A stretch of 64,000 bases of DNA from Aeromicrobium marinum DSM 15272. GTDB lineage: Bacteria; Actinomycetota; Actinomycetes; Propionibacteriales; Nocardioidaceae. Below the pieces are notes generated by a model. The model did not search any database and was not told the origin of the DNA. It saw nothing but the letters and a program-made list of their open reading frames with translations. The stretch is taken from the NCBI RefSeq assembly GCF_000160775.2, contig NZ_CM001024.1, forward strand, positions 161,016-225,015, given 5' to 3'. Positions 43,370 to 48,257 of this stretch are shown here, one piece after another. Positions within the stretch are counted from its first letter, which is position 1. Each line of letters opens with the position of its first letter. A program made the translations under genes and the position numbers.

Positions 43370-44163
43370 CCTCTCGCGCCACCCTGCGCGACGCGGTGGT
43401 GGCCGACCCCGGTGGCACCCTGCTCGCGCTCGACTTCGACGGCACCCTCGCGCCGATCGTCGACGACCCCGCACAGGCGCACGTCCACCCGGCGGCCGCC
43501 GAGGCACTGTCCCGACTCGGTGGCCGGCTCGGCACGGTGGCCGTCATCACCGGCCGTCCCGTGCTCCAGGCGTTGGAGCTCGGCGGCTTCCGCGGTCGGG
43601 CCGGGCTCGAGGACCTGGTGATCTGTGGTCAGTACGGCGCGGAGCGGTGGGACGCCGCGACGGGGGCCGTGTCGAGCCCGACGCGACCCGACGCGGTCGC
43701 GGCGCTGGCCGAGGCGCTGCCCGACTGGTTGGCGCGGCACGGCGCCCCCGGGGCCAGGATCGAGGACAAGCACCTCGCGGTCGCGGTGCACACCCGTGGG
43801 CTCGGCGACGGGGTCCTGGAGTCCATCGGCCGCCCCCTGGCGGACCTGGCGCGGGCGCACGGTCTGACCGTCGAGCCCGGCCGTCAGGTCGTCGAGCTGC
43901 GAGCGAGCGGGGTCACGAAGGGTGACGCCCTGCGCACGCTGGTGGGTGAGCGGTCGCCGCGGGTGGTGGTCTATGCGGGGGACGACCTCGGCGACGTACC
44001 GGCCTTCGACGCCGTCGACGACCTGCGCCGCGGCGGGACGACCGGGTTCACGGTGTGCTCGGCCTCGACGGAACAGACCGCACTGGTGCCGCGGGCCGAC
44101 CTGGTGCTCGACGGCCCGGACGCCGTGGCCGCCTGGCTGGTCGAGCTCGCCGATGCGCTCTGA
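43366..44163 (+). CDS. otsB: Trehalose-6-phosphate phosphatase
   Basis: A 265-residue HAD phosphatase. The nucleophile motif is LDFDGTLAPI (DxDxT), motif II is in VITGRP, the cap contains EDKHLAVAVHTR, and motif IV is VVYAGDDLGD. It dephosphorylates trehalose-6-phosphate. It is co-transcribed with DUF3263 and LytR_C and translationally coupled (ATGA overlap). The other half of the pathway, otsA, is divergent. Confidence 0.93.
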   Translation: MTSRATLRDAVVADPGGTLLALDFDGTLAPIVDDPAQAHVHPAAAEALSRLGGRLGTVAVITGRPVLQALELGGFRGRAGLEDLVICGQYGAERWDAATGAVSSPTRPDAVAALAEALPDWLARHGAPGARIEDKHLAVAVHTRGLGDGVLESIGRPLADLARAHGLTVEPGRQVVELRASGVTKGDALRTLVGERSPRVVVYAGDDLGDVPAFDAVDDLRRGGTTGFTVCSASTEQTALVPRADLVLDGPDAVAAWLVELADAL

Positions 44164-44602
44164 ACCGGCGGCCGACGCCACCCGGTGGACCCGGGTCCGT
44201 GCGGTGGTCAATGCGGTGAACGGGTCGACCGCGCTGGGTCTGCTCGTCGCCCGGGCGGGCGGGGCGACCCCGCGGCGGCAGGGGCGCGGTGTGCTGCTGG
44301 CGACAGGTCACCGCTGGGGGTTCCCCCGGGCCGACGCCTTCACCGTCGGGAACGTCGTGATCAGTCGACGGGACGCCGCATGGTGGACCGGCCGCGAGAC
44401 GTTGCTGCGGCACGAGGACCGGCACTGCACGCAGTACGCGTGGAGCCTCGGTCCGGTCATGCTGCCGCTGTACGGTGCTGCCGCCGCGGTCTCCTGGGTG
44501 CTGGCGGGCGACCACGCCTCGTACAACCCGTTCGAGCGGCTCGCCGGTCTGGACGACGGCGGCTACCGCGCTGCACGGCTGCGCCGCGCCCGACGTCGTT
44601 GA
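44153..44602 (+). CDS. Conserved hypothetical protein with HExxH motif
   Basis: A 149-residue protein that overlaps otsB by 11 bp. Residues 60-88 read FTVGNVVISRRDAAW and LLRHEDRHCTQYAW, where HEDRH fits the HExxH zinc-metallopeptidase motif. A hydrophobic segment (GPVMLPLYGAAAAVSWVLAG) follows, then NPFERLAG. It resembles small actinobacterial proteins of unknown function. Whether the motif binds zinc is not known. Confidence 0.72.
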   Translation: MRSEPAADATRWTRVRAVVNAVNGSTALGLLVARAGGATPRRQGRGVLLATGHRWGFPRADAFTVGNVVISRRDAAWWTGRETLLRHEDRHCTQYAWSLGPVMLPLYGAAAAVSWVLAGDHASYNPFERLAGLDDGGYRAARLRRARRR

Positions 44603-44625
44603 GGTCTGTCCGGGATATGGACGGA

Positions 44626-44656
44626 TTGGACACATCGTGAGACCACTTCGTAGGCT
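44626..44656 (+). promoter_or_regulatory. Promoter of the SAM-riboswitch operon
   Basis: TTGGAC (44626-44631) and TAGGCT (44651-44656) are separated by 19 bp (18 bp if TGGACA 44627-44632 is the -35). The predicted start near 44663 places the 5' end of the RNA at the first strand of the riboswitch. Confidence 0.55.
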
Positions 44657-44662
44657 GGTTCC

Positions 44663-44768
44663 ACTCATCACGAGGGGTGGAGGGAACGGCCCGCTGATAC
44701 CCCAGCAACCAGTCGGTCTTCGACCAGGTGCTACGTCCGTCCCGGAGTCCGCTCCGGGGAAGATGACC
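44663..44768 (+). promoter_or_regulatory. SAM riboswitch (S-box type)
   Basis: The conserved aptamer core is readable: GAGGGGTGGAGGGAACGGCCC followed by TGATACCCC and GCAACC (44671-44710). TCATC (44665-44669) pairs with GATGA (44762-44766) to close P1. P3 and P4 hairpins occupy the space between (GGTC/GACC near 44716-44726; CCCGGAGTCC with GCTCCGGGG near 44740-44760). The Shine-Dalgarno CTGGAGG follows P1 at once (44768-44774), so translation is probably blocked when SAM is bound. S-box elements normally control methionine or SAM synthesis genes. Confidence 0.88.
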
Positions 44769-44779
44769 TGGAGGTATCC

Positions 44780-46051
44780 GTGAGCATCACCACCGAACCC
44801 CGTCCCGCCGTCGCCCTCCGCGAGGGAGCCTTCGGCCCCGCCCGCGAGCTGGTCTGTCGTGAGTGCGGGACCACGCGCCCCCTGGGACCGCACTACGCCT
44901 GCCACGAGTGCTTCGGCCCGCTGGAGATCGGTTACGACTTCGGCCCCGTCACCCGGGAGCAGATCGAGAGCGGGCCGGCCAACATCTGGCGCTACAAGGC
45001 GCTGCTGCCGGTGCCCGACGACATCGAGTCCAGCCCCAACCTCGAGCCGGGCTTCACCCGGCTGCTGCAGGCCCACAACCTCGGCCGCGAGCTCGGCATC
45101 GCGAACCTGTGGGTCAAGGACGACAGCACCAACCCCACCAACTCCTTCAAGGACCGCGTCGTCGCCTGCGCCCTGAGCGCGGCCCGCGAGTTCGGCAGCC
45201 GGGTGTTCGCCTGCCCGTCCACGGGCAACCTCGCCAACGCGGTCGCCGCGGCGGGCGCACGTGCCGGCATCCGCACGGTGGTGTTCATCCCCAGCGACCT
45301 CGAGACCCCCAAGCAGGTCAACTCGGCGGTGTTCACCGAGAACCTCGTCGCCGTCGACGGCACCTACGACGACGTCAACAAGCTCGCCAGCGAGATCGCC
45401 GGTGAGGAGGACGGTTGGGCGTTCGTCAACGTCAACGTGCGGCCGTTCTACGCCGAGGGGTCCAAGACGCTCGGCTACGAGATCGCCGAGCAGCTCGGGT
45501 GGCGCCTGCCCGACCAGATCGTCATCCCGGTGGCGTCGGGGTCGCAGCTGACCAAGGTGCACAAGGCCTTCCAGGAGCTGATCGCCCTGGGCCTGGTCGA
45601 GGACAAGCCGTACCGCGTGTTCGGCGCCCAGGCCGAGGGGTGCTCGCCGGTGGCCACGGCCTTCGCGGCCGGCGTCGACGCGATCCGCCCGGTCAAGCCC
45701 GACACCATCGCCAAGTCGCTCGCGATCGGCAACCCGGCCGACGGGGTGTACGTGCTCGACATCGCCCGGCAGACCGGGGGGACCGTCGAGCAGGTCAGCG
45801 ACGACGAGATCCGCGCCGGGATCGTGCTGCTGGCCCGCACCGAGGGCATCTTCACCGAGACCGCCGGTGGCACGACCGTCGCGACGCTCAAGAAGCTGGT
45901 CGACACCGGCGTGCTCGACCCCGCGCTCGAGACCGTCGTCATCAACACCGGGCACGGACTCAAGACCCTCGACGCGGTCTCCGGCCGGGTCGGACCGGTC
46001 GCCACGATCGCGCCGACCTACGATGCGTTCGCCGCCTCCGGCATCGCCTGA
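44780..46051 (+). CDS. Threonine-synthase-like PLP enzyme under SAM riboswitch control
   Basis: A 423-residue fold-type II PLP enzyme of the ThrC family. An N-terminal zinc-ribbon-like element has Cys26, Cys29, Cys41 and Cys44. The PLP lysine is Lys124 in NPTNSFKDR, and PSTGNLANAVAAAGARAG is the phosphate-loop region. ThrC uses O-phosphohomoserine. Because this gene is under a SAM riboswitch and followed by a CysO-like sulfur carrier, it may instead replace the phosphate with sulfur to give homocysteine. Sequence alone cannot separate the two activities. GTG 44780 has CTGGAGG 6 nt upstream. Confidence 0.85.
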   Translation: MSITTEPRPAVALREGAFGPARELVCRECGTTRPLGPHYACHECFGPLEIGYDFGPVTREQIESGPANIWRYKALLPVPDDIESSPNLEPGFTRLLQAHNLGRELGIANLWVKDDSTNPTNSFKDRVVACALSAAREFGSRVFACPSTGNLANAVAAAGARAGIRTVVFIPSDLETPKQVNSAVFTENLVAVDGTYDDVNKLASEIAGEEDGWAFVNVNVRPFYAEGSKTLGYEIAEQLGWRLPDQIVIPVASGSQLTKVHKAFQELIALGLVEDKPYRVFGAQAEGCSPVATAFAAGVDAIRPVKPDTIAKSLAIGNPADGVYVLDIARQTGGTVEQVSDDEIRAGIVLLARTEGIFTETAGGTTVATLKKLVDTGVLDPALETVVINTGHGLKTLDAVSGRVGPVATIAPTYDAFAASGIA

Positions 46052-46076
46052 CCCGTCCCACCAGGAGCCCACGACC

Positions 46077-46352
46077 ATGCCCGTATCCGTCCGCATCCCC
46101 ACGATCCTGCGCAGCTACACCGGTGACCAGTCCCAGGTGACGGCCGACGGCGAGACCCTCGCCGAGGTCCTCGACTCCCTGGAGGCCGACTTCCCCGGGA
46201 TCCGCTCGCGGGTGGTGGACGAGGCCGGCGCCCTGCGCCGGTTCGTCAACATCTACGTGGCCGAGGAGGACGTCCGGTTCGCGTCGGGCCTCGACACCCC
46301 CACCCCCGAGGGCACCCAGATCTCGATCATCCCGGCCGTCGCCGGGGGCTGA
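46077..46352 (+). CDS. MoaD/ThiS-type sulfur carrier protein (CysO-like)
   Basis: A 91-residue beta-grasp protein ending AVAGG, so the C-terminal Gly-Gly needed for thiocarboxylation is exposed. The body closely resembles mycobacterial CysO (IPTILR..TG, RFVNIYV, EDVRF, PAVAGG). The ATG has AGGAG 11 nt upstream and the gene is 25 nt after the ThrC-like gene in the same SAM-controlled transcript. The partner activating enzyme (MoeZ/ThiF type) is not in the window. It probably donates sulfur to the ThrC-like enzyme. Confidence 0.88.
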   Translation: MPVSVRIPTILRSYTGDQSQVTADGETLAEVLDSLEADFPGIRSRVVDEAGALRRFVNIYVAEEDVRFASGLDTPTPEGTQISIIPAVAGG

Positions 46353-46404
46353 CCTGCAGGTTTCCGGGTGATCAGCGTCATGTGACGAACGTGTGACGCG
46401 ACAC

Positions 46405-46433
46405 TTGTCATGACACATGGCCGTTGGCATACT
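46405..46433 (+). promoter_or_regulatory. Promoter with palindrome, leaderless, for the membrane/cupredoxin operon
   Basis: TTGTCA (46405-46410), 17 bp and CATACT (46428-46433), then 6 nt and ATG 46440. The palindrome TGTCATGACA (46406-46415) overlaps the -35. No Shine-Dalgarno precedes the ATG. The upstream sequence also contains repeated GTGACG/GTGTGACG words (46382-46400). Confidence 0.62.
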
Positions 46434-46439
46434 CCGGGA

Positions 46440-48257
46440 ATGCTCATCGAAGCCAGCACCACCACTCCCGTCGGCGGGGCCGCCCTCGACCAGGTCCTGT
46501 GGCTGTCCGTCGTGGCCGGCGCCGTGTCGCTCGTGCTGCTGTTCATCGCCTGGCAGCACCGCACGCACCGCATCGAGTGGTTCCAGAGGTTCGGTGACTT
46601 CCTCCACGCCCGGATGGGCGAGCCCGGCTGGGCCGCGATCCCGGTGTTCTTCGTGGCGAGCTCGCTGATCGTCGCGCTGCTCGGGTTCCTGTGGGACGTC
46701 AGTCTGCACGCCGGCCGGGGCCGGGACGAGGGTCCGCTGGCCAACCCGGCCCACTACTTCATCCTCTACGGACTCTTCGCCCTGTTCATCGCCGGCATGA
46801 GCGCAGTGGTCTACTCCCGCGACGGGGTGAAGCCCGGCATCGCGTCGGTCAAGATCACCCGCCAGTGGTACGCCCCCGTGGCCGGCATCTACATCGCGGC
46901 CTGCGGCCTGTACGCCCTCATCGGCTTCCCCCTCGACGACGTGTGGCACCGACTCTTCGGCCAGGACGTCACGCTGTGGGGTCCGACGCACCTGATGCTC
47001 ATCGGCGGCGCCGGCCTCTCGACGGCCGGCATCATCATCCTGCGCCGCGAGGCGGAGTTCTCGATGGACTACGAGGACCGCGGCGGACTCGCCCGGTTCC
47101 TCGTCTACGGGGCCGCCTTCGGTGGTCTGCTGATCGGCCTGTCGGTCTTCCAGGCCGAGTTCGACTTCGGCATCGCGCAGTTCCGCATGGTGTTCGCCCC
47201 CCTGATGATCGTCGCCGCAGCCGGCATCACCCTCGTCGCTGCCCGCCTGTTCGTCGGTCCCGGCGCCGCCCTGTTCGCGGCCGCCTTCTTCCTCGGCATG
47301 CGCGGGCTGGTCGCCTTCATCGTCGGCCCGGTGCTGGGGCAGGCCGACCACGTGTTCCCCCTCTACCTCGGCTGCGCCCTGCTCGTGGAGCTGCTCGCGC
47401 TGTCGAGGCTGCGCGAGAACAAGCTCGCCTTCGGTGCCGCGGCGGGTCTGCTGATCGGCACGGTCGGCCTGGCGATCGAGAAGGTGTGGAACGACCAGGT
47501 GTTCGACTTCCCGTGGACGTCGGACATCTACCTCGAGGGCCTGCTGATGGCGGTGCCGGTGGCGATCGGTGCTGGCATGTGCGGAGCCTTGTTCGCGATG
47601 GGTCTGCTCGGCGAGCTGCCGAGCCGGGCGGTGTCCCGCACGGTCGTCACGCTGTCGGTGCTCGTGGTCTCCGGCGCCGTGGCCAACGGCCTGTACGCCA
47701 CGGTGCCCGACGGTGCCACCGCGACGTTCACCACGACGCAGGTCGGCACGCCCGACGACCCGCAGATCCTCACCGAGGTGGTGCTGTCCGAGGGTCTCGT
47801 CGACGACAACCCGACGTGGGTCCAGATCACGGCGTGGCAGGGCGGCGGCGAGGGGATCGTCACCGACAACCTGCGTCGCAGCGCCCCCGACACCTACGAG
47901 TCGACCCGGCCCGTCCCGATCGGCGGCACCTGGAAGACCCTGCTGCGGGTGCAGGACGGCCGCACGCTCACCGCGGCCCCGATCTACCTCTCCCCGGACG
48001 AGGCGATCGGTGCCGAGGAGCTGCCCGTCGAGGCCACGATGACGCGTGAGTTCATCCCCGAGATCGAGATCCTGCAGCGCGAGCGCGACTTCGACGCCCC
48101 GGCGTGGCTCTGGGGTCTGGCGAACTTCGTGGTGCTGCTGTGCAGCCTCGCCGTGATCACCGGTGTCTGCGTGTCGGTCGCCCGCGTCTCGGGTCGCATC
48201 GCCGCTCTGGAGAAGCAGCGTGACGCGGCCGCCGATCGGGACCCCGTGACCGGATGA
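46440..48257 (+). CDS. Large polytopic membrane protein with extracytoplasmic C-terminal domain, unknown function
   Basis: A 605-residue protein. About ten hydrophobic helices fill residues 20-400, with conserved-looking His and Trp positions (ANPAHYFILYG, RQWYAPVAG, LWGPTHLMLIGG). Residues 415-575 form a soluble beta-rich domain (GATATFTTTQVGTPDD...), and a last helix (ANFVVLLCSLAVITGV) precedes a charged coil. No family is recognised. It heads an operon with a small helix protein, a cupredoxin-like lipoprotein and another membrane protein, each overlapping the next by 4 bp. Confidence 0.75.
   Translation: MLIEASTTTPVGGAALDQVLWLSVVAGAVSLVLLFIAWQHRTHRIEWFQRFGDFLHARMGEPGWAAIPVFFVASSLIVALLGFLWDVSLHAGRGRDEGPLANPAHYFILYGLFALFIAGMSAVVYSRDGVKPGIASVKITRQWYAPVAGIYIAACGLYALIGFPLDDVWHRLFGQDVTLWGPTHLMLIGGAGLSTAGIIILRREAEFSMDYEDRGGLARFLVYGAAFGGLLIGLSVFQAEFDFGIAQFRMVFAPLMIVAAAGITLVAARLFVGPGAALFAAAFFLGMRGLVAFIVGPVLGQADHVFPLYLGCALLVELLALSRLRENKLAFGAAAGLLIGTVGLAIEKVWNDQVFDFPWTSDIYLEGLLMAVPVAIGAGMCGALFAMGLLGELPSRAVSRTVVTLSVLVVSGAVANGLYATVPDGATATFTTTQVGTPDDPQILTEVVLSEGLVDDNPTWVQITAWQGGGEGIVTDNLRRSAPDTYESTRPVPIGGTWKTLLRVQDGRTLTAAPIYLSPDEAIGAEELPVEATMTREFIPEIEILQRERDFDAPAWLWGLANFVVLLCSLAVITGVCVSVARVSGRIAALEKQRDAAADRDPVTG

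Follow-up and report, generated by a model that had tools for sequence, protein, structure and literature searches.

What does a threonine-synthase-like enzyme make when its gene lies directly behind a SAM riboswitch and is followed at once by a gene for a small sulfur carrier? The question is raised by a locus within a 64,000-nucleotide stretch of DNA from Aeromicrobium marinum DSM 15272 (here called the window; G000:C1:161016-225015), which belongs to a single-contig genome of 3,079,740 bases rated 99.99% complete. The original prediction for this DNA had placed an S-box SAM aptamer at 44663-44768 directly ahead of a PLP enzyme of the threonine synthase family, had noted a sulfur carrier ending in AVAGG behind the enzyme, and had proposed that homocysteine is made from O-phosphohomoserine and the thiocarboxylated carrier. 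Its observation of switch, enzyme, and carrier is correct to about one base, because matches to RF00162, to TIGR00260 and PALP, and to ThiS are found at those places.

The SAM (S-box, SAM-I) aptamer is intact and lies at 44662-44769 on the forward strand, as do all features described here. It covers the Rfam model RF00162 completely (model positions 1-108; 75.8 bits, gathering score 44.4; E 5.6e-16), and it is the one match to this model at E <= 0.001 in the 3.08-Mb genome. Ten nucleotides beyond its end is the GTG start of a metM-like gene (44780-46051), whose 423-residue PLP-dependent product is assigned to the threonine synthase family by a match to Pfam PALP (PF00291) and by the thrC model TIGR00260 (260.3 bits, cut-off 167.1), and lies with MetM in a tree. 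Its predicted PLP lysine, Lys124 in the motif SFKDR (45149-45151), to which we give this role from the family, is invariant in the alignment (110/110 MetM rows and 29/29 ThrC rows), and a zinc-ribbon-like motif of four aligned cysteines (Cys26, Cys29, Cys41, and Cys44; 44855-44911) stands near the N terminus. After a gap of 25 bp follows a metO-like gene (46077-46352) for a 91-residue sulfur carrier of the ubiquitin (ThiS/MoaD) fold, which matches Pfam ThiS (PF02597) with 57.8 bits (cut-off 22.5) and falls just under the cut-offs of the NCBIfam models SAMP1 and moaD_arch. The predicted protein ends in AVAGG, so that an exposed Gly-Gly (46344-46349) forms its last residues. MetO is 52.7% identical to the CysO of its own genome, and among proteins of solved structure the one nearest in sequence is chain 3dwg_C (listed as 'cfp10A'; E 2.9e-25), presumably the M. 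tuberculosis CysO. The genome's own CysO is encoded elsewhere, at a separate mec-cysO-cysM locus, and MetO adjoins neither cysM nor mec.

The position of the aptamer bears on how it may act. A GGAGG at 44770-44774, the presumed ribosome-binding site, adjoins helix P1 on the side of its 3' strand. The start codon follows the conserved P1 end by 10-21 nt in the 75 rows, of 81, that allowed this measurement (five gave no start under the rule used, and one row is incomplete). A simple scan of 44400-46500 returned no terminator-like site. The switch therefore most likely acts on translation, since aptamer and gene lie so close together that a terminator would hardly fit: binding of SAM, which together with repression we infer from the riboswitch family, would close P1 beside the ribosome-binding site and lower translation of metM and probably of metO too. 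Upstream, promoter-like hexamers can be picked out by eye (TTGGAC at 44626-44631 and TAGGCT at 44651-44656, 19 nt apart), and both in the window and in loci L030-L034 a TAGGCT or TACGCT, again found by eye, precedes the CTCATC of the aptamer by 7-9 nt; these candidate hexamers do not appear in the output of an E. coli-style scan. We also considered whether a longer P1 might pair with the ribosome-binding site and dropped the idea on inspection by eye, as such pairing is unconserved in relatives and only a few bases separate the -10-like hexamer from the aptamer. Folded in silico without ligand, the leader is not clearly more stable than shuffled sequences (z -1.04). In seven related loci (L032, L033, L034, L036, L059, L064, and L079) the palindrome AAGGAGGCCTCCTT lies right after P1, upstream of metM, and ends in or beside a TTG start; Streptomyces and Amycolatopsis loci have a GAGG...CCTC pair at the same place, and either element is possibly part of the expression platform.

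The three-part layout is widespread. Among the best 80 of 580 confirmed actinobacterial loci, which form our related-locus set, an S-box core, detected by pattern match rather than by Rfam, precedes MetM in 79, and in the remaining one (L086) the sequence ends at its 5' side; a MetO homologue stands beside MetM in 58 of the same 80. The 22 loci without MetO include one whose contig ends 69 bases past metM (L104) and two with only 796 (L085) and 1,069 (L077) bases downstream. With the S-box in 79 and MetO in 58 of these best 80, the arrangement of riboswitch, enzyme, and carrier is not due to chance. Across the phylum, a close MetM homologue (E <= 1e-90) occurs in 72 of 197 sampled genomes, the window's own included, and the 29 phylum loci fetched besides our own have RF00162 in 19, MetO in 21, both in 18, and neither in seven. 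Those seven loci, where the homologue stands beside neither riboswitch nor MetO, are L153, L155, L156, L159, L163, L165, and L168, and each of their genomes encodes another TIGR00260 protein over cut-off. Other neighbours are less informative. The trehalose-phosphatase gene found upstream in 57 of the best 80 of 580 loci looks like plain synteny. The open reading frame directly upstream, at 44153-44602, encodes a 149-residue protein with an HExxH-like motif (HEDRH), which has no Pfam match when searched without its first residue; we rejected it as a hydrolase of the carrier adduct because it is found in only four of these best 80 loci.

The suspicion that a related route exists in Streptomyces proved right. 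Hasebe et al. 2024 (doi 10.1128/aem.01247-24) describe MetM and MetO of Streptomyces albulus, SAM riboswitch included, as relayed in PMC12172450. In so far as that account goes, the window shares with S. albulus a ThrC-like enzyme, an adjoining sulfur carrier, and a SAM riboswitch upstream, a likeness that rests on description and on Streptomyces loci of the same layout rather than on the S. albulus sequences; three such loci (L091, L094, and L102) have the window's layout, with a MetM about 64% identical to that of the window, and the Streptomyces loci with riboswitch, metM, and metO group with MetM in the tree discussed below. The precedent, the arrangement, the riboswitch, the carrier, and the status of the enzyme as a paralogue agree, and they support the proposed synthesis of homocysteine from O-phosphohomoserine and a thiocarboxylated carrier. 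On comparative grounds we hold it very probable that the metM and metO of the window, governed by the SAM riboswitch, are orthologous to the MetM/MetO genes for homocysteine synthesis. A system of this type is already published, and what the window adds is a host that also encodes a parallel acetylhomoserine route.

The steps of the pathway can be proposed by analogy with the CysO system, with the S. albulus work as precedent. A MoeZ-type activator, for which the original prediction advised a search, is present: the one ThiF-family protein of the genome that exceeds its cut-off is a MoeZ (PRK07878, 681.7 bits) that includes a rhodanese domain. This MoeZ would adenylate the C-terminal glycine of MetO and swap an oxygen for sulfur from its rhodanese domain. 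MetM would bind O-phosphohomoserine on PLP and eliminate the phosphate, and the MetO thiocarboxylate would then add its sulfur at the gamma carbon, whereas in ThrC the corresponding steps would be protonation and addition of water at the beta carbon. Hydrolysis would free homocysteine from the MetO adduct, possibly through the Mec-like, JAMM-type protease (Prok-JAB) encoded at the mec-cysO-cysM locus, and homocysteine would pass to methionine and on to SAM.

Two known systems use comparable chemistry. The HcyS/HcyD route of Wolinella succinogenes resembles the proposed one in that a protein thiocarboxylate supplies the sulfur of homocysteine, and reportedly differs in that it has no ThrC-type enzyme. 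It reportedly starts from O-acetylhomoserine, with an enzyme of the OAH-sulfhydrylase type and a carrier trimmed by HcyD. This protein-thiocarboxylate route to methionine is the subject of Krishnamoorthy and Begley 2011, as cited in PMC5764234. For M. tuberculosis, PMC3227635 reports that MoeZ makes the CysO thiocarboxylate and that Mec frees cysteine from the CysO adduct; on that account the CysO-CysM-Mec system shares with the window a MoeZ-activated GG carrier, a PLP enzyme, and a phosphorylated amino acid as acceptor, and differs in using O-phosphoserine and yielding cysteine, and the window's genome has its own, separate locus for it.

An alternative is that MetM is a second threonine synthase, or a synthase and deaminase, which stands under a SAM riboswitch by chance beside a carrier that serves something else. 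MetM does exceed the curated TIGR00260 cut-off, so this model fails to separate it from ThrC; against PRK08197, the NCBIfam model that it matches best and that is also named threonine synthase, it scores 291.7 bits, short of the cut-off of 303. The two enzymes share their family, the PLP lysine, and, as we would expect, the substrate O-phosphohomoserine. The genome, however, encodes a canonical ThrC, 33% identical to MetM, in a separate hom-thrC-thrB operon, so that the window's enzyme is one of two TIGR00260 proteins over cut-off rather than the only thrC, the case that would have weighed against the original prediction. At least two such proteins occur in 43 of 43 MetM-bearing genomes examined (19 behind the related loci and 24 from the phylum sample), and 28 of 30 TIGR00260 matches fetched from these genomes are closer to our ThrC than to MetM. 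A tree was built from 110 MetM-type and 29 ThrC rows by a quick method with SH-aLRT rather than bootstrap support, and in it ThrC forms one side of a single branch (SH-aLRT 100). Systematic differences between the groups are found at 24 positions (>= 93% within each group), which are descriptive because the rows had been sorted into MetM and ThrC beforehand, by the better-matching of two queries or by the search of origin. In what we take, from knowledge of the fold family, to be the substrate-binding loop, 29/29 actinobacterial ThrC rows read STGNTS and 110/110 MetM rows, the window's included, read STGNLA, so that residues invariant in ThrC are replaced throughout MetM. The N-terminal four-cysteine motif, the SAM switch, and the neighbouring carrier further set MetM apart from ThrC, and threonine synthesis under a SAM switch would make little sense. 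A point in favour of a threonine synthase comes from a Microcystis homologue whose identity to the MetM of S. albulus is 51.6% and whose gene stands beside a metO-like one with no riboswitch: PMC12172450 reports weak threonine synthesis and threonine deamination in vitro and, with sulfide, an unidentified peak near methionine, and its authors doubt full MetM action. Taken together, we consider a second threonine synthase improbable for the window.

Equally improbable, in our estimate, is that the window's MetM makes homocysteine from O-phosphohomoserine with sulfur from free sulfide or from another carrier such as CysO, MetO being optional. Against it stands metO itself, directly downstream in the window and kept adjacent in 58 of the best 80 of 580 loci and in 21 of 29 phylum loci. 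What speaks for it is that riboswitch-led metM genes without metO exist. Twelve genomes with such a metM and no adjoining metO were searched whole with MetO, and each contains a single close carrier that shares 49-54% identity with the MetO of the window; in all twelve it is CysO-like, nearer to our CysO than to MetO, and has a Mec homologue beside it, and cysM lies within the fetched stretch in 11 (it is unseen in L119, and about 0.7 kb away in L120). Five of the twelve (G006, G008, G009, G010, and G012) have in addition one much weaker second carrier match, and MetO and CysO occur together in each of the seven control genomes. MetX and MetA are both undetected in four of the twelve (G004, G006, G010, and G012); Nocardioides terrae and Prauserella rugosa are examples of MetO-less species with neither enzyme detected. 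With CysO as the sole close carrier in 12/12 and MetX and MetA undetected in four, these genomes suggest that MetM can draw on CysO.

Further evidence that carriers may be shared comes from Streptomyces platensis. It has two capped carriers, PtmS2 (GG-MV), which is clustered with a JAMM protease, and PtmS3 (GG-C, 91 residues to GG), and according to PMC6006322 PtmU4 can use either of them in vitro once the cap is removed; a ptmS2 mutant still makes the products, and the authors suggest that PtmS3 may be redundant with PtmS2. Judged by their caps, lengths, and neighbours, PtmS2 would correspond to CysO and PtmS3 to MetO, and because both work with PtmU4, sharing between the CysO and MetM pathways is plausible by analogy. 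A search of titles and abstracts in the open-licence literature returned no report of MetM using CysO, and Hasebe et al. 2024 may discuss it; carrier-less metM lineages with CysO are possibly a new observation.

The history of the locus can be followed on the tree, where presence or absence of MetO changes at least nine times by parsimony (counting L104, where the contig ends, as MetO-less), four of these changes being forced by well-supported branches. All 79 MetO-bearing rows that span the four-cysteine motif keep it whole, as do 17 of 30 MetO-less rows; the other 13, which form one clade, have lost it (CCCC to SESD). This clade of Amycolatopsis, Prauserella, Saccharomonospora, and a MAG (L089, L092, L093, L095, L096, L098-L101, and L105-L108) holds only MetO-less loci. 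We offer, tentatively and at slightly less than an even chance, the reading that in several actinobacteria (Amycolatopsis with its relatives in one clade, and scattered Nocardioides, the window not among them) a riboswitch-led MetM, its own carrier having been lost, is supplied with sulfur by CysO. A single carrier loaded by MoeZ and a single JAMM protease would then feed both cysteine and homocysteine synthesis, SAM would control only the MetM branch, and the four-cysteine motif would then have been lost in one such clade.

Carrier tails vary across the related loci. An exact GG end, as in the window, is found in 55 of 78 readable MetO tails, and residues beyond Gly-Gly in 23, of which 16 have a single Cys; CysO-like tails end in GG in 5/19 and are extended in 14/19. 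Examples of extension are the CysO of L118, L119, and L133 and the MetO of L037, L042, L070, L094, and L144; the Streptomyces locus L133 has a CysO ending in GGMV, and the MetO of L094 and L144 end in GGC. Capped carriers typically require a protease to expose GG, according to PMC6006322. We at first read the recurrent Cys after Gly-Gly as selected, but a one-step duplication of the GCT triplet (GGCTGA to GGCTGCTGA) would explain the recurrence equally well. In one Amycolatopsis genome, some 8 kb separate a divergent carrier ending in SVAGG (L136; G009:C18:129776-130051) from a ThrC-like protein that is the third of its genome and more distantly related (G009:C18:120723-121703), and the two perhaps belong to a natural-product cluster.

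That the pair makes some other sulfur compound (cysteate-like, a thiosugar, or another secondary product) is scarcely credible: a weak match of MetM to cysteate synthase (TIGR03844, 63.1 bits) and the use of such carriers in a Streptomyces natural-product pathway (PMC6006322) hint at it, but the score is far under the cut-off of 324.9 bits, and the SAM switch and the spread through the phylum noted above point to primary methionine metabolism.

The pathway for homocysteine is then to be placed beside others in the same genome. The original prediction had advised looking for metX, metB, and metY, and the outcome is partly against it: MetX, O-acetylhomoserine sulfhydrylase, and an enzyme of the cystathionine gamma-synthase family are all present, so MetM/MetO is probably not the sole source of homocysteine and is not needed to explain methionine synthesis. 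MetX scores 499.7 bits against a mycobacterial MetX model (cut-off 475) and 404 bits, under the cut-off of 500, against TIGR01392; its gene directly follows that of the O-acetylhomoserine sulfhydrylase (727.9 bits, cut-off 703). The cystathionine gamma-synthase scores 680.6 bits (cut-off 513), and one further relative is encoded. Because MetX and the sulfhydrylase are encoded too, an addition relative to S. albulus, MetM/MetO is probably a second, SAM-controlled route in this organism, parallel to the acetylhomoserine route. In 19 other MetM genomes, most of which, like others searched for MetX and MetA, are probably drafts of many contigs, MetX is found in 10 (as three frame pieces in G003), gives no match at E <= 1e-20 in eight, and is represented in G016 by only a weak relative of 143.6 bits; a MetA-type HTS occurs in 1/20 genomes (G005). 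At G016:C2:439963-443303, in Streptosporangium, a weak carrier-like match lies about 2 kb from the weak MetX-like protein.

These results have consequences for how such genomes are read. Because the NCBIfam thrC model scores MetM over its cut-off, automatic annotation likely calls the protein a threonine synthase and misses the route, even though 72 of the 197 sampled genomes of the phylum hold a close homologue. A simple rule distinguishes MetM from ThrC: the riboswitch, the substrate-loop residues, and the presence of a second ThrC. The route offers an explanation for methionine synthesis in genomes with no detectable MetX and MetA, and it would link methionine supply to the CysO/MoeZ pool of sulfur carriers. 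The carrier-less lineages make such sharing directly testable, and this is the part most worth experiment.
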